Source: Periplaneta americana (Eukaryota; Arthropoda; Insecta; Blattodea; Blattidae). Taken from it: a stretch of DNA of 64,000 nt. Under the pieces are notes generated by a model. The model was not told the origin of the DNA. It saw nothing but the letters and a program-made list of their open reading frames with translations, and did no database searches. Location: NCBI RefSeq assembly GCF_040183065.1, contig NC_091126.1:145044204-145108203 (forward strand). The letters are read 5' to 3'. Made by a program: the position numbers and the translations under genes. Shown here one piece after another: positions 2,438-56,024 of the stretch (position 1 is its first letter; the number at the start of each line of letters is the position of its first letter).

Positions 2438-3017
2438 CATGGCTACTGATTGAGGGGATACAGTAAGAATCGTGAAAAAATTTGAGAAATTTTCATTGTC
2501 TCAATCGATAGAGTATACGTTTCTGTATACATTTCCAAATTTTCATATATATGTTGAGAGGGAGGGTGTAACATATGCAGCAGGTACTTTTTAGTGCAGG
2601 ATGTAAGTACAAGCATGTCCCAACTTTAGACTTATTTTCCCCAGTAATTACATTTTATGATACAAAAAACCTGATATCTCGAGAGCCGTTTGTCTGATTT
2701 CATTCAAATTTTGTACACTTGTCCTTTGTAATAATCTCTAGAGGTTGGACCACAATGGTTAAATTTGAATGAAAAGTGAGCAATTTTCTAGTAAAAATAC
2801 ATTGAAAAAGAAACAATTCTTTAATGCAAATTTAAAAATCTATAAATTTAGTGTGAAGTCAGCTGTAATGCTCATTGAGGACCAGTCTTTAGATTATGAT
2901 CTCAGATTTAAGAGAAAAGATGGTAAAGGCTATTATTTTCTCAGCTTAGGTTAAATCATGTTTTTTTTGTAAAAGACAACATCTTTTTAATTCAAACTTT
3001 CAAACATATTCATGGTT

Positions 3018-3241
3018 TAGAATAACTCTTCTCGGGTTCTCAGCCAGGTGAGTTGGAGATTAGCTTCCAAGCTTTCGACGGCTAGCTCTGCCATCTTCTT
3101 CATGGAATAAAGTTTACCTGCATTCCCTGAAGAAGATGGCAGAGCTAGCCGTCGAAAGTTTGGAAGCTAATCTCCAACTCACCGTGCTGAGAACCTGAGA
3201 AGAGTTATTCTACATCAAATGCCGGGAAAGCCTCAAGTCAT
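3018..3241. mobile_element. hairpin element 1 with 14-bp target duplication
   Basis: Positions 3018-3102 and about 3128-3212 form inverted arms of roughly 85 bp with about four mismatches, separated by a loop of about 25 nt. A tail of about 29 nt follows (containing GCCGGGAAAGCCT). The whole insertion is flanked by the direct repeat ACATATTCATGGTT at 3004-3017 and 3242-3255. A 14-bp duplication is the length expected of target-primed retrotransposition, not of cut-and-paste elements. There is no open frame of note. Confidence 0.8.
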
Positions 3242-3478
3242 ACATATTCATGGTTACTAGATGTATTATATATCAAATTGAAACTAAAATCATGTAGAAT
3301 AAGTGTGTACAATTTAAAGAAAATATATGAAGTGTTAGTCAAGTTATTTAATATTTTGTAAAAAGTGTAACCGCTACTGTATGAGACCCCTTAAATTATT
3401 TCTTCGTTGTTTTTATACCTAGGTTTCTTAAACCAATGTCATATCCCTGTGTCCTAATACCCAGAAAAACACACAGTA

Positions 3479-6845: not shown

Positions 6846-7609
6846 ACTTATAATCTGAACTGTTCCTCATTTAGTTACAGTGGCATATATGAAGGAAGTT
6901 ATGCGTGAATAGTGATATATTTATTTTGTTTCGATCCAAATTACACATAAATGGTTAAATGTTACTTTTTTTATCGAAATAAGGATAAAAGATATTAAAA
7001 AATGGTATGATTTTTAAAAACAAAAACATTGTTACTACAACTTGATAAATAATTAGTTACATTAAGTGCCATATTCGAAATGCAATGTATTAATCCAGGG
7101 CAATTTGAGTGCAGCAAAGGTAAGTTGTTTCTTGAATTTGTGCTCCAACTATATTATAAATTGTCAACTGATTCTCAATAAAGAATGCATGCACCCTGGA
7201 ACAAGTAATCGAAAAAGTTCTTACATTAATTAACAAAGTGCAAGAAAAGTGTTTGCTTCAGAGATCGATGTGAATACAAAAACAGTAATTGATTATTTTA
7301 ATGTTTGTAAAAAGGTCTGTCATGTAATGGTAAGTACCATGTAAGTCTTCACTCATTTGGTGGAAATTCTATGCTTATCTCATTTTCAAAGGCAATGTTA
7401 GTGTAGTCAATCATAGTATAGAATATATAAGACAATATTCGGGCATAATAGTTCTAAGCCTATGGCCACCATACTGTCAAAAAATTGTATTTAAATTATT
7501 TCGTTAGGTCAAAACAGCATATCATAGTGACACAGTCGAGGAAATTACCACAACGGTACAATTTTTCAAACTTTCACATTTATTTAAAATATTTTTTTAA
7601 ATTTTCAAA

Positions 7610-8545
7610 CACTCACTGTGGGCTAAAGCAAGGAGATGCACTTTCACCTTTACTTTTTAACTTTGCTCTAGAATATGCTATTAGGAAAGTCCAGGATAAC
7701 AGAGAGAGTTTGGAATTGAATGGGTTACATCAGCTGCCTGTCTATGCGGGTAACATGAATATGTTAGGAGAAAATCGACAAATTATTAGGGAAAACACGG
7801 AAATTTTACTTGAAGCAAGTAAAGAGATAGGTTTGGAAGTAAATCCCGAAAAGACAAAGTATGTGATCATGTGTCTTCACCAGAACATAGTACGAAATGT
7901 AAATATAAAAGTTGGAAATTTATTCTTTGAAGAGGTGGAACAACAGTAACAAAATAAATGACACTCAGGAGGAAATTAAACGCAGAATAAATGTGGGAAA
8001 TGCGTGTTATTATTCGGTTGAGATGCTTTGGTCATTTAGTTTGCTGTCAAAAAATCTGAAAGTTGGAATTTATAGAACAGTTTTATTACCAGTCGTTCTG
8101 TATGGTTGTGAAACTTGGACTCTCACTTTGAGAGAGAAACAGAGATTAAGGGTGTTTGAGAATAAGGTTCTTAGGAAAATATTTGGGGCTAAAAGAGCTG
8201 AAGTTACAGGAGAATGGAGAAAGTTACACAATGCAGAACTGCACGCATTGTATTCTTCACCTGACATAATTAGAAACATTAAATCCAGACGTTTGAAATG
8301 GGCAGGGCATGTAGCACGTATGGGCGAATCCAGAAATGCATATAGAGTTAGGTGGGAGGCTGGAGGGAAAAACCTTTGGCGAGGCCGAGACGTAGATGGG
8401 AGGGTAATATTAAAATGGATTTGAGGGAGGTGGGTTATGATGGATTAATCTTGCACAGGATAGGGACTGATGGTGGGCTTATGTGAGGGCGGCAATGAAC
8501 CTGCGGGTTCCTTAAAAGGTATTTGTCAGTAAGTAAGTAACACAG
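7610..8545 (+). mobile_element. non-LTR retrotransposon 3' fragment, family R, copy 1 (dead)
   Basis: The plus strand encodes the second half of a reverse transcriptase: [15 protein letters not shown] (RT finger/palm block), then the catalytic box, which should read YADD but here reads YAGN, then the C-terminal region LYGCETWTL, LRKIFGAKR, HNAELHALYSSPDIIR and RRLKWAGHVARMGESRNAYR. About 20 nt are missing near 7938 relative to copy 56036-57075, which breaks the frame, and a second break follows NAYR. The 3' end is GTAAGTAAGTAA at about 8529-8540. The family is a non-LTR element; I do not assign the clade. Confidence 0.88.
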
Positions 8546-8629: not shown

Positions 8630-9530
8630 CTCTTTTGAGGAGAGCACTGAAATATTCTTCCTCTGTATTGGCAGGATTACAATATATCATAAGCCAGGGA
8701 ATAATGCCATAAACATGGACACCAAGCAAAGAGATCACCACTCCTTTGACGATTCTTCATTGCATAGACCACAGAATATTTTAGGATCTTGTTATCGTGC
8801 ACAGATCCTGGCCATTGAGCATCAGTATTGGTGAATTCCTTTTTAGCACTACTTGTAGCTTGAACATTGCTGCTTGCTCCTGTGAGTGCAGCCAATGACA
8901 CCAATAGCTCAAAGAAAATAGTGATGTCCTCAAAGTAACCTAGCAACATTGATGTCATTCCATGGGAAATTTTAGCCACAAATTGGTCTTCTCTAAAAAT
9001 ATGGGTAGAATAAGGATGCCTTCCATAATGTTGTGTGACGAAAACAAATTTCGTCCACACCTGTGGAGTAACGGTTAGTGCGTCTGGCCGCGAAACCAGG
9101 TGGCCTGGGTTCGATTCCCGGTCTGGGCAAGTTACCTGGTTGAGGTTTTTTCTGGGGTTTTCCCTCAACCCAATATGATCAAATGCTGGGTAACTTTCGG
9201 TGCTGGACCCCGGACTCACTTCACTGACATTATCACCTTCATCTCATTCAGATGCTAAATAACCTAAGCTGTTGATAAAGCGTCATAAAATAACCTACTA
9301 AAATAAAAATAAATTTCAAAGCCAGGCTCATTTGAAAGTCCATGACAAATTTCCATCATTTGTTTTTCGGTTAAAGCACTTCCTCATGTTCAATTATCTT
9401 CTTCCAAGAAATAAGATGCAAGCCACTCATTTTCGTCCGTAAAAATAAAAAAAAAAAACTGTGGTAATCTTCTTCTCGAATCTTGACTCATTCTTTGTAC
9501 ATTTCATATCTTCTTACTATCATAAAAGCT
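8630..9530 (-). pseudogene. PIF/Harbinger transposase pseudogene, split by a SINE
   Basis: On the minus strand, 9048-8630 encodes GVIGCTHI (normally GVIDGTHI), NVQATSSAKK, the diagnostic WPGSVHDNKILKYS block with the conserved HD pair, and after a stop NPANTEEEYF in another frame. All are hallmarks of Harbinger/HARBI1-type nucleases. A less certain upstream part (about 9313-9530) contains LTEKQMMEICHGL. A SINE (9055-9312) interrupts the two. The catalytic Asp of GVID is replaced, and stops are present, so this is dead. Confidence 0.75.
9055..9312 (+). repeat. tRNA-derived SINE, family A, copy 1
   Basis: Head: GGAGTAACGGTTAGTGCGTC (A-box region) and GGGTTCGATTCCCGG (perfect B box). Body: GGGGTTTTCCCTCAACCCAA, GGGTAACTTTCGG, CCCCGGACTCA, CATTATCACCTTCATCTC and AACCTAAGCTGTTGATAA. 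Three more copies exist in the window (53344-53589 plus; 33641-33882 and 60148-60374 minus). It sits inside the Harbinger pseudogene. Confidence 0.9.
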
Positions 9531-35946: not shown

Positions 35947-38900
35947 GAAAAATAATATGTCATTCACCAAATAATTTTCTATGCTGTGAGTTTGTTTCAG
36001 TAAAGGTTTAATTTTTATAAAGCAACGCATATTATGCTCAGCTGAAGAAGCATGTGTTGAAATTCCCCTGGAAATATTTTTCCGATCGTTGAAGCTGTCG
36101 GTAGGCCACGCTGTTCCCTCCCTCCCTCTCCCTCCGTCTCTCACACACACAAGCACGGACAACAGAACAGTTTATTTCGCGCCACATTACCAAAAAGACG
36201 CATTTATGTTCCCCACACCAGGAAGCATTGAAAGTTCGCGTTTTACAATCCATGAGGATTTACTTGTCTAGTCCCTTTTAGAAAGAGAAAGAATACTCAC
36301 CATCTCTCTCCACTCATTTATTGTGACGGCGATATGGTCAACACTCCTTCCAACAACCACGAGTTAGCAGCGGCGGCACTCTCTTTCTCTTCAAATTCTG
36401 ACTCCTCTCCGTCAGAAAGTTCCTCGTCCGTGTCCGTGTTGTCCAAATTTATTACGAACCGATCACTAATTTCATCTACTAGTCCGTCCTTTTCCCAATA
36501 AAATTGTTCAACTTTTTCTACGTATTCACAGGTCTTTCTCCAATTATCTTCCGTCACTTTTGCAAGAGTGCTCTCAAAGAACAATTTCACATCTTTACTT
36601 TTGAGCGAAATACTATGCTTCGCAACGCCATTTTTAACCTGTCCCCATATTAATTCGTCCGCGTGTAAGTGACAAAGGTATGGTGGCTGTCTCACTACAG
36701 TATGGAAATGCATTGTCGCAATTTGGTCGATTTCGTATGTTTTGAAATTGTCTTTTATAGTTTTTACAAGTTCATACAATACAGGTTTCATGGATCGTAA
36801 ATCAAGTTCAACATTATTGCTACGAAGCCAGGACTGCAGTTCAGATTTCGACGTTGATGAAATCGGTGCCTTATTGAGTTCTGTTGAATGATAGGAGGCA
36901 TTGTCCATAACAATGATACTATTGAGAGGAATGTTTGGTAATAATTGATTAATGAACTAGTTCTTAAATACAGTACTGTTCATCACCTCGTGGTTTCTCT
37001 CTCAAACTCCATATGCTTCCAGTGAATAAGTTTTCCTTAATTAACGCGTCATTTATATCCTTCAAACTAGGCAACAAATAAGTCCGATATAAATAATAAA
37101 TTACTCGTCTTATAGTGGCGGCAGAAAATGAGTCAATTGCAGTTTTCTGAGGGGTCCTGTTTGGGCGTTTCTTTCCTAGAGTTCGCAGGTCACTTCCACT
37201 TTCTAGCGCCTCCCTTTGTTTTGTTTTTTTTTTTAATCCTGCTAACACTACGAGACGATATACCTGTCGCTGCAGCAGTTCTTCCGGTAACTCTCGACAC
37301 AGATATTGCTTGCTTTCCGCATTTCTGTGCCTCATATTCTTCGGTAAAGAATTTCTGTATATTAATAACCATGTTCATACTGTCCGACTTCAAGGCTTTC
37401 CCGCGTTTTCCCATATTGCTTACCATGATTATTAAAAACATGAGCACAACACTAATTACAATGTTTAAGGTAATAGGGAAACAATGCAATTCCGAAAACA
37501 TTTTGTTTAAATTGTGAATTGAAGGGCTCAGAGCCAAAGGCGACCAACCCACAATTTTGTATTGTTAATTGTAACCCTTTTTTCAAAACTATACATTGTT
37601 GTTATAGATTCATGCTATATTTTTGTATTTATTCATCATCATCATCATCCTTCACGAATTAGGCCTCTGTAGACCTGTTTCGGCCCCATCTAGCAGTCTT
37701 CTTAAAGGCCTTCCTGGTCGACGATGTCCTCTAGGTTTATACTGCATCATAATTTTTGGGATTCTTGAATTTTCCATTCTTCTTACATGATCTAGCCAAT
37801 TGAATTCCTATCTGCTGATTTTTTCTTCTACTGACTCTACTTCTAATTGTTCTAAAATTTCTTCATTCCTTTTTCGGTCTAAAAGAGTATATCCTGCTGT
37901 CCTCCTCAAAAATTTCATTTCCGTTGCTTTGATTCTGTTCGCGTCTTTTTTCTTTAATGACCAAATCTCGCTTCCGTATAAAAGGGTGGGTAATGCTAGT
38001 GTATTATATATTTTTATTCTTGTAGATTTTTGTACTAATTTAGCTTTTAATGCATTGTTTATTATTCCTAGAATTTGTGTAAATTTGGTAATTTTCTTGT
38101 TCACATCTTTTTCATTTTGATAAGATATTTCACAACCCAGATAATTGAAATTTTGCACTTGTTCGAGGCATTGGTTATTGTGTATTATCTTACTTCTGAC
38201 TGGGTCTTGTCCTAAAAATGCCATTACTTTTGATTTTTGTGCTGAAATTTCCATCCCAAAATCTTTTAATATTTTATTTAATGTATACAATCCTCTTTGT
38301 AAATTATCCTCTGAATTGGAAATTATGACTTGATCATCGGCGTAGAGTAAGGTATTTAATGTTAGAGCACTGTATTTATTCAATGTAGACCAATTAAAAT
38401 AAATTGTGAAACCAATCATTTTTTGTCAGGATCCTCTTAATTTCACCCCTTATTTGCTCATTTTGTAATTGTGGGTTAGTCGCCTTTGGCTCTGAGCCCT
38501 TCAATTATGTTATATTAAATTGATACAACAAGACACACACTTACTTCACTGTTCACAAAATATTACCGAATAAATAAACTCGAACAACGCCAAGTGGCCA
38601 CTGAGAGATCCACTAATTGGGTTTGCAAAAGTGTGTTCTTGAAGGGCTAAGGGAGAGGGAGGGAAGGGACTTCCAAGAATTCTACAAAAGAAAACCTTTT
38701 CCCCGTTACATCTGTTGACGGTCGGTAGAAAAGAACCGCAGACAAGGACAGTAGAAATCACGCCAACTTAACCCTCATGCACTTGTAATATAATCTTTCT
38801 GAAAAATTGTCAGTGACGGCATAGGTCTGTTTTAATTTAAAACTTCTCTTATTTCAATATTATTTCCTCTCGAAAAGGATAGACTACTCTAACAATGAAT

Positions 38901-41900
38901 TTATTACAATTACGAGTATCATAATTGTTTCTCGCATCTCTTTCGATTTTTATTTTCCGGAAACACATAACTACACTGCACCACATGACGATTCGCCACT
39001 GTTATTCTCACCCCGGCATTGACAAAAGACCGGGTTCTGAATGGGAGAATTGGAGGCTAATGAGTGGGCGAATACCTGCTAGGCCACGAGGCCACAGAAA
39101 CGTGCCTCAATTATAGCTTTCCGAGTGCAAACCACAGTCTAATAGATACAGTCACGCAACTCATACGTATAAAATATGCCAACATTTGACAGCTGGCGCG
39201 ACAGTAGCCCTCTGGCGGCAGGCAAGTTAAAAGTGTGCACACGACATATGATAACACATCAGAAAACGGGTTTTGCGTAATTTATTTTATATTTTTATGT
39301 TATACAATAAGTGTATATGGTTCTCACTAATTCTACTTTAGAATCCTGGAAGAATTTCACACGCAAGTTAATTTACAAGTTTCAGAAGCTGGGAATAAAC
39401 GTAATTCTTTCTGCTCCTTACAACTGAATCATGGCCCTGATCACGTATCATGGTTTGAAATAATATAATTGTTTGTACGTGGACGGTTAATTCAATTCAT
39501 TCCTAAATATATTTATAAACCATTGGAATTCTATATTTCCTGTGAGAAGAGTCAAAATTGTAGGGCATATCTCGTAGGGTACATCGCGTGGTGAACTCCT
39601 CTCTCTATTTCCTGAGAAATTCACTATTTTCCATACCGCAAATTGGGGTAAACTCGGCCGCTGAGGTAAACTTAAAAATGAAAAAGGGGAAGATTTAAAC
39701 CTTAATTTGACAGAAATTGATTTATGAAGTTCATTATTTTTTCATTTTTTTATTATTTTGAGTCGCTAATAGTGCTGATATTATGGTTTAAATTTTTATG
39801 GAAAGTTTGCCGCATTTTACATTACATTTCCCGTTTTCACACATAAGCTTAATTTTAACTTACCCTACCTATATAATACGTAATTTACATCCACTTACTG
39901 TTATTATGACGTAGGTGAGAACAAATGAATACACAATTTTGTTGAAAAAATTGTAACTTCAATTAACTCAGAAAATGTAGGCCTAATTTTATTTTCAGAG
40001 CAGACGTGGTGTAAGTCAAAAATGGGTAATGAGGGTTAAAATAAACATTCTGTAAAATACAGCGCAAAGTAGCAGTTAATATTGAATTTATTTAAATTAT
40101 TAGGAGTCAGTGAATAGCACGAAGGATATATTATATTGGAGTGTAGGCTTTCACGGCCGGCGTCAATAGTAGAAAAGTTTTCCGGGCTATGAGGCCGTGG
40201 TCTGTTGGTTGTGAGACCAAACGTTTCGTTCACTGAAGATGTTCACCGCAGCAGTGAACGAAACGTTTGGTCTCACAACCAACAGACCACGGCCTCATAG
40301 CCCGGAAAACTTTTCTACTACTGAAGGATATATTGCTACTTTGCGCTGTATTTTAAAGAATTTTTACTTTAAACCTTATTACCTAATTTTGACTTATACC
40401 ACTTCTGCTCTGAACAGCTCAAATAATCACTGGTAATGTAAAATCAACATCAACAACAGTCATGCAAATTATTACAGAAAAGATTGCTTTTTATATTAAA
40501 TTTAAAAAGGCTCTTTTATATCTTGAGAACCTAATACGTCGTCACATGAATCTACACCAACACATCAGAAATTTATCGACATAGTCTGGATTTATTCAAG
40601 AAATGAATATTTTGCTAAAGGATTATAATACGCCATGAATTCTTGAAAAATTAACACCATAATCCCTACTTGAATGCAATATAACATTCAACTTTTGAAA
40701 AATATAAAGAAAAAAACACGAATACAAAAATTATGGAATTACTTGCATTAAAAACTGTAGATACATTATCCAAACTCGGAATGGTTACACATTTACACAT
40801 GATCTCTGCAAAACAATAATATACTGTAACAGGTATTTACTTTGTTTTTATTTAAACTCAATTTCCTGACATACAAATAGGCAACTGATAACTAATAAAT
40901 GTTTTATAGAACACAATACGTAGGCTACCTACAGCGTGGATTATAGGTTATGACTGAGTTATGATTTTCTCTTGGTCTTTAGGGAATCTGAAGAACGACA
41001 AATTCGGAGATATAAACTTGTTGTTACTGCAATTTTCGTCATTGCACACATTGCCTTTATTCAGACGCATGATTAAAACGTTATTATAACATCTCGCATA
41101 CCTTCAAAGCACTTGCTGGCTGTATCAACCCTATGACCAGTGCCTTGCCTGCCGCTTGAGCGCTAGTGTCGTGAATGTTGGCAAAAAGAGTGTTGAAGTT
41201 GCGCGACTGTATATATTAGACTGTGGTGCAAACTATACTATATAACATCTTTGGTGCAACCTTTTAAAACCCGTGGAAACATACGAAATGTATAGAAGCC
41301 AGACCCAGCCAAAACATTTCGGGCCTCAGGAACAAATTTTACTGCAAGATAGGTCTATATACATCACAAAGTTTTCTACTTCTACAACTCTATACACTAT
41401 ATAACGTCTTTGCTCTATACACGTCATTCAAATAACTAATATAAGTCAACTTCGGTTATACCTCTGCGGACCAGCATATTTCGTTCACTATTTCCGAGGC
41501 TCACTAAAACCGAAATGTGTTTTTATACTATTGGCGTTGTTATACATACAATATTAATGTGCACTTGGAACAGACCACGTTCAATATCAGTAATAATGTT
41601 CACTTTATCTTCCAACTTAAACACTTTATGCTTCGTCATCCTGATGTTCACAGTTCGAAACTTGAATCTGAGGAGCATCGTTTCAAATCATATTATGTCC
41701 AAAAAACAACATTTTACAGGAAGAACGAAAAACTGATTACTCTTAATCTGGGTAATTTTTCACAAAGTGAAAAATGTGAAGTTATTATGCTTGAGGAATA
41801 CTTCAAGGAACTTTAAAAAATGAAATCACTTTTCAATTCTGTTCTTGAAATTGAAGGAAAATGTGTTGGACATAATACGTTTTGATCCAATAATTGTACA

Positions 41901-51872: not shown

Positions 51873-52009
51873 CTGCAACATAAAAAAGTATCACTATAGT
51901 ATGAACAAAAAAAAATGGTCGGTAATACAACAAAACTGGTTGCTTTAAGCTGCGGACGAGGTTGTTCAGAGAAGAAATACTCTTGATGTAAAGTATAGTT
52001 GAGCTGTTC

Positions 52010-52920
52010 AGAGCAGAAGTGGTGTAGGCTAAGTCAAAATTGGGTAATGAGGTTTAAAGTGAAATTCTCTAAAATACAGCGCAAAGTAGCAATTAATATG
52101 TACTTCGTGCTATCCACTGACTACTAATAGTTTAAATAAATAAATATATTTATTTATTTATTTATTATTTTGCTAATAATTATAACATAACATATATTAT
52201 ATATAGAAAAAAATTAGCTCGCCCCTGAAAGAGGAGAACTCGTGCTCAGGGGCGGATTCCTGAATTGAAATTAATAAGTATACAATACAATTTGTTTATG
52301 TCTACTATGCAATTATAGTATATAAATTTAAATTTACAATTTTTCAATTTTTATAAAATCCATACATAACTTTTAAAATTTAATACTAGAACTATTAGAA
52401 TTGACAAGATTAGGATATTTAAATATAAATTTGTTATATATTCTTGGGTCTAAATTACTACTATGATTAAATACTCTAACAGTGTTGCATTTTGTTTCAA
52501 ACAATCTTAAAGAATTCATACCTTTCATTTCATAACTATGAGAATACAATTCAAAATTATTTCGATTTTTATGTATGAATTTTATTAATACAATATAATA
52601 AATTTGTCTTACGTTAAGTACATTAAAGTCTAAAAACAAATTTTGAGATGGAAAATCAATAGGTTTATGAAGACATATTTTAATTATTTTCTTCTGTAAT
52701 AAATAAAGTGGATTAAAATTGGATTTAAATGAGCTACCCCATCCTATAATTTCATACATAGTTACCGATTGAAATGAAGTTAAATATATTGTGCGTAATA
52801 AACTTATTGAGAAGTAATTCCTCAATAAAATGGAATATTAATGGCTACTTTGCGCTGTATTTTACGGAATGTTCACTTTAACCCTCATTACCTATTTTTG
52901 ACATACACCACTTCTGCTCT
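52010..52920. mobile_element. MITE 'CAGAGCAGAAGTGG', copy 2, split by a non-LTR insertion
   Basis: Left end 52010-52095 and inverted right end about 52840-52920 match the ends of 39996-40412, and the interior word TAGCACGAAG / CTTCGTGCTA is shared. Between about 52141 and 52840 the element is interrupted by a reverse-oriented non-LTR fragment. Confidence 0.8.
52141..52840 (-). mobile_element. non-LTR retrotransposon 3' part, 5'-truncated insertion
   Basis: The minus strand at 52825-52373 is open for 150 codons: YEIIGWGSSFKSNFNPLYLL, QKKIIKICLHKPID, then VRQIYYIVLIKFIHKNRNNF. This is the same C-terminal block as in 18834-19490. The 3' UTR has a hairpin CGCCCCTGA...TCAGGGGCG (52221-52254) and ends in AAATAAATAAATAAATA. 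It reads as a 5'-truncated, target-primed insertion into a MITE. The catalytic RT part is absent. Confidence 0.82.
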
Positions 52921-52956
52921 CAACGACTTAGTTGCTTATATGCATCGTAGTAGTAC

Positions 52957-54135: not shown

Positions 54136-54795
54136 ATTACGATCGCAATCATCGTATATAAGAGCGCTCAATGGGCCAAACCGAGTCTAAGTGTATGGAG
54201 CACGGACCCGTTCCAGGTCCAGCCCACTTAAAAACCAAGCCAAACCAAATAGTGTTAAAAGTAGCCAAGTTTTTAATTAACTTAACGACGTTTATTACTG
54301 AAGTATTTATGCAGCATCTAAACGAGTAACGAATGGTTACCAAATCTTGATTTAGCACTCTACAAAGGACAGGATTCTTTTATGTGCCGTAAATCTACGA
54401 TACGAAACCCAAAAATGTCTTCCTTTCTAGAAAAGATCATGCTAAAGTTTTTATTTAAAATTCATTGTTCTCGGCGGGATTTGGACATGTGAACTTAATG
54501 TTAAACTCGAGATCATCGAGTGAAGACAGTTACTGTATTTGTACTCGTATTGTCTGCCATCCTCCACCCTGGGAGTGCTAATCGTTTATCAGCCAATTTT
54601 GGATGCAAAATTATAAAATTTATATAATTATACATGGTGTAACCAGAAAAGTGGGCGAAACGTCAGGCATGGTTTTCTTGTATGTATATAAGAAAAAATT
54701 GTTATATCATCAATCAACATGGGTCCGGAAATGCTTGGTTTCTGAGTAGGTTTTGCAAATGATCATAGCGCACTCCAACACGTTTGTTTTCTGGA

Positions 54796-54897
<102 letters not shown>

Positions 54898-55110
54898 TCA
54901 TGGAATGAAACTATCTTGTTTCACTTTCCTGCCCTAGTAGAAGAGCAATTCCACTGCAAACAGATCAAGATTTGACATTGCTATCTTCGACTTCCTTTTT
55001 TTAAATTTTTCGGACACGTTTAACAGTTTCTTGAGTCTTGGGCTCAGATGAGAGGTAAAAATATATTTAATACTATGGAAATTTATATAGCCTACAATAA
55101 AAATATGGAA
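54898..55110. repeat. dispersed repeat, pair member 1
   Basis: TTCCACTGCAAACAGATCAA, GACATTGCTATCTTCGA and AGGTAAAAATATATTTA in order recur at 58459-58790 with about 80% identity. Both members neighbour 3' ends of the family R non-LTR element (55391, 58388), so this could be part of that element's far 3' flank or an independent repeat. Confidence 0.7.
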
Positions 55111-55392: not shown

Positions 55393-55950
55393 ACAGGAAA
55401 TGAGCAATGCGTGTTATTATTCGGTTGAGAAGCTTTTAACATCCAGTCTGCTGTCAAAAAATCTGAAAGTTAAAATTTATAAAACAGTTATATTACCGGT
55501 TGTTCTTTATGGTTGTGAAACTTGGACTCTCACTTTGAGAGAAGAACATAGATTAAGGGTATTTGAGAATAAGATGCTTAGGAAAATATTTGGGGCTAAG
55601 AGGGATGAAGTTACAGGAAAATGGAGAAAGTTACACAACACAGAACTGCACGCATTGTATTCTTCACCTGACATAATTAGGAACATTAAATCCAGACGTT
55701 TGAGATGGGCAGGGCATGTAGCACGTATGGGCGAATCCAGAAATGCATATAGAGTGTTAGTTGGGAGGCCGGATGGAAAAATACCTTTGGGGAGGCCGAG
55801 ACGTAGATGGGAAGATAATATTAAAATGGATTTGAGGGATGTGGGATGTGATAATGGAGACTGAATTAATCTTTCTCAGGATAGGGACCAATGGCGGGCT
55901 TATGTGAGGGCGGCAATGAACCTCCGGGTTCCTTAAAAGCCAGTAAGTAA
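55392..55950 (+). mobile_element. non-LTR retrotransposon family R, copy 2, 5'-truncated
   Basis: The plus strand from 55400 is open for 154 codons: NACYYSVEKLLTSSLLSKNL, LYGCETWTLTLREEHRLRVF, HALYSSPDIIRNIKSRRLRW, AGHVARMGESRNAYRVLVGR, GRPRRRWEDNIKMDLRDVG, then a TGG-to-TGA stop where the other copies read DWINL. The product continues INLSQDRDQWRAYVRAAMNL to TAA near 55936. The 3' end is GTAAGTAAGTATT, running straight into (ATT)n. It lacks the RT catalytic box altogether. Confidence 0.9.
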
Positions 55951-55972
55951 GTATTATTATTATTATTATTAA

Positions 55973-56022
<50 letters not shown>
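55951..56022. repeat. (ATT)n microsatellite
   Basis: About 70 bp of ATT units joined directly to the GTAAG tail of the preceding element. Confidence 0.97.

Positions 56023-56024
<2 letters not shown>

Follow-up and report, generated by a model that had tools for sequence, protein, structure and literature searches.

Two hairpin elements, here called E1 and E2, lie in the window, i.e. the whole 64-kb stretch of DNA that was analysed. Nine of the 20 open reading frames (ORFs) of at least 120 aa listed for it were scanned with Pfam: two matched RVT_1, one matched DDE_3 below the cut-off and six had no match. The RVT_1 matches mark reverse transcriptase remnants at 7458-7949 on the plus strand (E 2.2e-10) and at 37808-38425 on the minus strand (E 3e-11), both LINE-like by eye, while the weak DDE_3 match (25.8 bits against a cut-off of 28.6) points to a possible transposase remnant at 36318-36956, also on the minus strand. 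No reverse transcriptase or GIY-YIG domain of a Penelope-like element (PLE) was found among these nine ORFs. ARAGORN places a tRNA-Gly (ccc) at 9129-9222 on the plus strand, overlapping an opposite-strand ORF (8677-9243). Long AAT/ATT trinucleotide arrays occupy 54798-54898 and 55947-56023, and pairs involving the latter array account for 20 of the 25 listed inverted repeats, out of 132 found.

E2 is a 190 bp hairpin element at 40133-40322, flanked by perfect direct repeats: its target-site duplication (TSD) is the 12-bp sequence GAAGGATATATT, present without mismatch at 40121-40132 and again at 40323-40334. The arms (40167-40235 and 40252-40320) pair over 69 perfect bp around a loop of 16 nt, and a tail of 34 nt (40133-40166, minus strand) is present on one side only. 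A preliminary description of this DNA had already recognised the hairpin, the 16-nt loop, the tail and the 12-bp repeats; only its arm length of 68 bp needs correcting, to the 69 measured here. Within the tail, the word GCCGGCCGTGAAAGCCT reads on the minus strand at 40145-40161, and when up to three mismatches are allowed it occurs once in the window, against 0 expected from 100 shuffles.

The element is nested in a separate inverted-arm element (39994-40414, with 81-bp arms at 39994-40074 and 40334-40414), a relative of which lies at 52007-52923, with arms at 52007-52099 and 52828-52923. In the related copy at 52007-52141 the E2 site is unoccupied and the target is present once: it reads ..AGTAGC AATTAATATGTACTTC GTGCTAT.., and the E2 flanks read ..AGTAGC AATATATCCTTC (E2) AATATATCCTTC GTGCTAT... 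This unoccupied site belongs to a diverged relative and is not allelic. Because it runs through without E2 and holds a single copy of the target, E2 is an insertion with a duplicated target.

E1 (3018-3237, plus strand) has the same architecture. Its arms, at 3018-3108 and 3122-3212, mismatch at 5 of 91 positions and enclose a 13-nt loop, and the tail, which starts at 3213, carries GCCGGGAAAGCCT, the counterpart of the E2 tail word. The two copies of its TSD (3000-3017 and 3238-3255) can be read as 18 bp with one mismatch or, over the last 14 bp, as perfect. That the two hairpins have a tail in common, as the preliminary description held, is borne out, the tails giving a score equalled or exceeded in only 1 of 2000 shuffles. 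The arms taken alone are matched by 121/2000 nucleotide shuffles and 2217/5000 peptide shuffles; with the tail added, the figures become 32/2000 for nucleotides and 2/5000 for peptides, the latter match being in a frame other than that of E1's own ATG and crossing a stop. A free-end-gap peptide alignment of E1 with E2 (58/5000) was discarded, as it had slid onto an off-register ESL match.

The arms had therefore been rightly described as unshared at the level of their sequence, but a feature common to both had been overlooked. In each hairpin we found CTGAAGAN followed by a 6-bp stem with a 7-nt loop and then GAAA, starting at 3127 in E1 and at 40233 in E2, an arrangement like the core of a hammerhead ribozyme. 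The E2 core (40233-40263, plus strand) reads CTGAAGAT-GTTCAC-loop7-GTGAAC-GAAA, with an ATG 6 nt in, and the E1 core spans 3127-3157, also on the plus strand. The distance from CTGAAG to CGAAA is 26 nt in E1 and E2, and that from CTGAAG to GAAAGCC is 99 or 102 nt. A search of both strands of the 64 kb for the pattern CTGANGA, 0-1 nt, a stem of 5-8 bp with a loop of 3-12 nt, and GAAA gave exactly two matches, E1 and E2, and no third core. Among 500 shuffles (mean 0.036 matches, maximum 1), 18 contained a single match and none contained two. A looser pattern lacking the stem was also found twice, against a mean of 0.55 and a maximum of 2 in 60 shuffles; since it is not significant by itself, we take the stem-bearing pattern alone as evidence.

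Rfam gave no match at gathering thresholds. Hammerhead_3 matches E2 weakly at 40218-40269 (15.3 bits, the gathering score being 48.5; E 0.32 and 0.28), its model core aligning with the CUGAAGA and CGAAAC of E2, but the match appears only in scans of 52-61 nt, where miRNA models outscore it, and is lost when 501 nt are scanned. Relaxed Rfam scans of E1 gave no Hammerhead_3 match. Minimal type I hammerheads have been reported in the pseudo-LTRs of PLEs (PMC7761336), and the sequence and place of the cores in E1 and E2 fit this type; we treat them as putative and call them hammerhead-like.

The identity of E2 came from comparison with the 361-nt template RNA of PAc, the Poseidon element of Anolis carolinensis (green anole), as given by Frangieh et al. 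2024 (PMC11167929), whose ORF is reported to start at the hammerhead. Aligned with this template, the tail-side arm plus tail of E2 scores 45, a value that none of 2000 shuffles attained (mean 20.5, maximum 40), and the alignment puts CGGCCGTGAAAGCCT over CGGCCATGAAAGCCT, the tail word as it stands in PAc. Deprived of its tail, the arm scores 28, a value that 32 of 2000 shuffles reach or exceed. The peptide read from the E2 ATG, with its start taken from the tail-less arm and the remainder from the tail arm, can be aligned along its whole length with residues 1-40 of PAc at 38% identity (0/5000 shuffles as good), and the two have V-x-E-T-x-G, PHSP and D-x-G-x-ESL in common. A comparison of the translated start of the PAc ORF (78 residues) with the six-frame translation of the window put E2 first, at E 0.012, ahead of a match at E 0.50.

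Nucleotide BLAST of PAc against the window ranks E2 (E 0.79) below two short matches, one of 25 nt at 54643-54667 (E 0.005) and one of 20 nt at 24629-24610 (E 0.065). As E2 is not the top match here, the nucleotide E-value alone would not identify it; the ordered alignment and the peptide do. The sequence at 54643-54667 (plus strand) is identical at 22 of 25 positions to the hammerhead/ORF-start region of PAc and contains GTGGGCGAAACGTCAGG exactly, with no CTGANGA directly before it, no tail word after it and no peptide support; it is possibly an old scrap of a PLE, or else a chance match.

E2 thus combines homology to a PLE ORF start, a hammerhead-like core, an inverted pair of pLTRs with one tail, and a TSD, and taken by itself it almost certainly consists of two head-to-head copies of the ORF-start/pLTR end of a PLE. 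For E1 the PLE-type features found are the hammerhead-like core, the boundary of the tail and the TSD. Its nucleotide score against PAc was reached by 1410/2000 shuffles and its peptide score by 437/5000, so neither is significant. An ESL stands at residue 31 in the E1 ATG frame (33 in E2, 34 in PAc), with a second one at residue 7, and free-end-gap alignments of the E1 peptide slid to an off-register ESL match, so we left them out as support. The assignment of E2 is secure, and that of E1, which rests on architecture, less certain: E1 would represent the same kind of insertion, an older one, derived from a diverged PLE family. The two look like one kind of thing, joined by the short 3' tail in which reverse transcription starts, and their arms differ probably because the source PLE families differ.

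Against PAc, the parts of E2 read as follows. The tail-side arm (40167-40235, minus strand) is a 5'-truncated PLE cDNA of 22 codons whose frame runs on into the tail, and the tail itself consists of ORF codons (10 residues) and includes GCCGGCCGTGAAAGCCT. The tail common to E1 and E2 is PLE coding sequence. The tail-less inverted arm (40233-40322, plus strand) is a second, slightly longer PLE cDNA, which begins with CTGAAG, has its ATG at 40239 and codes from there for at least 11 residues; its perfect homology to the other arm stops at 40320 (CTACTA), 14 nt before GAAAGCC, and its final CT is untemplated or mutated. The two meet head to head at 40233-40235, where the tail-less cDNA reaches CTGAAG and the tail-bearing one reaches CAGTGAACG, overlapping by the 3 nt CTG/CAG. 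In E1 the arms go beyond CTGAAG by a few bases on its upstream side, and the loop of 13 nt (3109-3121) comes from one cDNA only.

We then compared the ends of the hairpins with the sites at which PAc starts reverse transcription. According to Frangieh et al. (PMC11167929), reverse transcription is initiated internally, at two neighbouring sites of the RNA, most often at ORF 111-118 nt, which is AC-rich, and genomic copies bear an optional tail of 30-40 bp that matches the stretch between the two. GAAAGCC lies at position 100 of the PAc ORF, so this interval is 12-19 nt from its G. Measured likewise past the start of GAAAGCC, the tail-bearing 3' end falls at 20 nt in E2 and at 12 nt in E1, i.e. 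both agree with the 12-19 nt of PAc, E2 to within 1 nt. The tail-less arms end 14 nt (E2) and 13 nt (E1) before GAAAGCC, suggesting, in two insertions, a fixed end. Since tail-bearing and tail-less ends sit at these distances, both start sites seem to be visible in each hairpin, one per end. From the 30-40 bp length of the tail, positions 111-118 would be the distal of the two.

These observations suggest that E2 would be a minimal insertion by PLE machinery of the Penelope/Poseidon type. The endonuclease would cut both target strands with a stagger, repair of which would leave the 12-bp duplication, and each of the two target 3' ends would prime reverse transcription once within a sense PLE RNA, a short way beyond where the ORF starts. 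Initiation at the distal site would produce the tail-bearing arm and initiation at a proximal site ~34 nt upstream the tail-less one. Both cDNAs would come to an end close to the hammerhead-like core and the ATG, having reached some 70-105 nt, and head-to-head joining at the overlap of 3 nt would then create a hairpin that has its tail on one side only; end joining would fit this junction because the overlaps are short. In E1 and E2 alike, both cDNAs extend past the GAAA of the core on its upstream side, so none of the four was copied from an RNA ending at a cut just after it. The PLE origin and this mechanism with two start sites, taken together, seem to us a reasonably good bet.

On this reading the hairpin of E2 is an insertion scar, a product that needs no function. 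The preliminary description had proposed arms re-made by template switching. It is most likely true that the arms of E1 and E2 arose during reverse transcription, yet re-copying is not needed, and they are consistent with two cDNAs from a single kind of RNA, each primed on its own side of the target. More tentatively, and with the balance leaning somewhat against it, each hairpin could be the frozen record of one PLE dimer, both target strands priming on one and the same region of the RNA, with one subunit at the distal site (tail), the other at the proximal site (no tail), and the RNA uncut by its hammerhead.

The explanation that competes best also starts from a PLE, and has the inverted arm made when the nascent strand, or an antisense transcript, folds back and primes its own copying (snap-back). 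It is what the authors of the rotifer study favoured for head-to-head copies, some of which have palindromes at their inverted junctions (PMC3846280), and the perfect arms of E2 are in line with it. Snap-back, however, does not explain why the second arm ends 13 and 14 nt before GAAAGCC in E1 and E2, and PAc is reported to extend both target strands (PMC11167929), which leads us to regard it as unlikely.

A third route from a PLE is twin priming in the manner of LINEs, in which priming from the second DNA end can occur at whatever internal site offers microhomology. Head-to-head inversion, 5' truncation, the TSD and the 3-nt overlap at the junction are all as it would have them. Its priming sites should scatter, though, and E1 and E2 have almost the same starting point for the inverted segment; two elements make this suggestive, and we judge twin priming of this kind improbable, some way below snap-back.

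Two hairpins within 64 kb that have a tail word in common may also bring to mind an undescribed non-autonomous family that is defined by its 3' tail and multiplies as hairpins; the preliminary description saw in them a candidate for a new element class and suggested looking for a LINE that ends in the same tail. Within the window this is not borne out. The tail word occurs once there and is found in the ORF start of the PAc PLE, and both arm and tail of E2 belong to the start of a PLE ORF; the similarity of E1 and E2 arms is not above chance and the window has no third core, making such a family very improbable. A PLE relic reduced to its two ends can be mistaken for a new hairpin element. Two matches from scans of sequence collections were set aside as chance: one in a viral contig (L001) lies inside an open reading frame, and in one in a bacterial MAG (L002, Prosthecobacter) the resemblance to E2 covers the 20-nt pattern and is otherwise made of stray short matches. 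Two further viral pattern scans returned 0 matches, and phages and plasmids gave none at E 0.1.

A TIR/foldback DNA transposon or a microRNA precursor, to which the long inverted repeat and sub-threshold matches to several miRNA models might point, is hardly credible in view of the one-sided tail, the TSDs of 12 bp and 14 to 18 bp, the PLE homology, inverted termini that belong to the enclosing element at 39994-40414 in which E2 is nested, and miRNA matches, the bulk of what relaxed Rfam scans returned, that are all below gathering scores, several on both strands and to many different families, which we treated as hairpin noise because any long hairpin may give such matches.

Should the asymmetry between a tail-bearing and a tail-less end prove genome-wide, hairpins with one tail would be for PLEs what twin priming is for LINEs and would test the two-site model directly in vivo. 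Near-bare hairpins would reveal where both cDNAs of a single genomic event began and where both stopped, and counting boundaries over such hairpins would test that model cheaply. The in vitro work covers cleavage and internal initiation on both strands, PAc protein cleaving and extending both, and says that later steps await validation (PMC11167929).

E1 and E2 differ from retrozymes, which are tandem units, in being an inverted pair with a one-sided tail. The minimal type I hammerhead core is nevertheless found in PLE pseudo-LTRs and non-LTR retrozymes alike (PMC7761336). PAc itself resembles E2 in its ATG beside a CTGANGA core, in V-x-E-T-x-G and PHSP, in the tail word CGGCCRTGAAAGCCT and in a 3' end at almost the same ORF position, but it is a full-length tandem element of a lizard, whereas E2 consists of about 70-90 nt of two cDNAs plus a tail, without coding capacity and at 38% peptide identity (PMC11167929). 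A curation guide lists inverted pLTRs and short 3' extensions among what PLEs show (PMC8969392). In the rotifer Adineta vaga, Penelope copies with inverted pLTRs (e.g. Pen2a_Av) are reported to have, like E2, a tail on one side (31 bp on one of the head-to-head pLTRs), a short TSD (9 bp) and an overlap at the junction; solo pLTRs are also mentioned there (PMC3846280). In the copies described, the inverted pairs flank ORFs, ORF remnants or host DNA, whereas E1 and E2 are almost only two ends (PMC3846280). Since inverted pLTRs with one tail had already been described in these rotifers (PMC3846280), E2 is a known kind of PLE insertion, remarkable only for its reduction to two ends.
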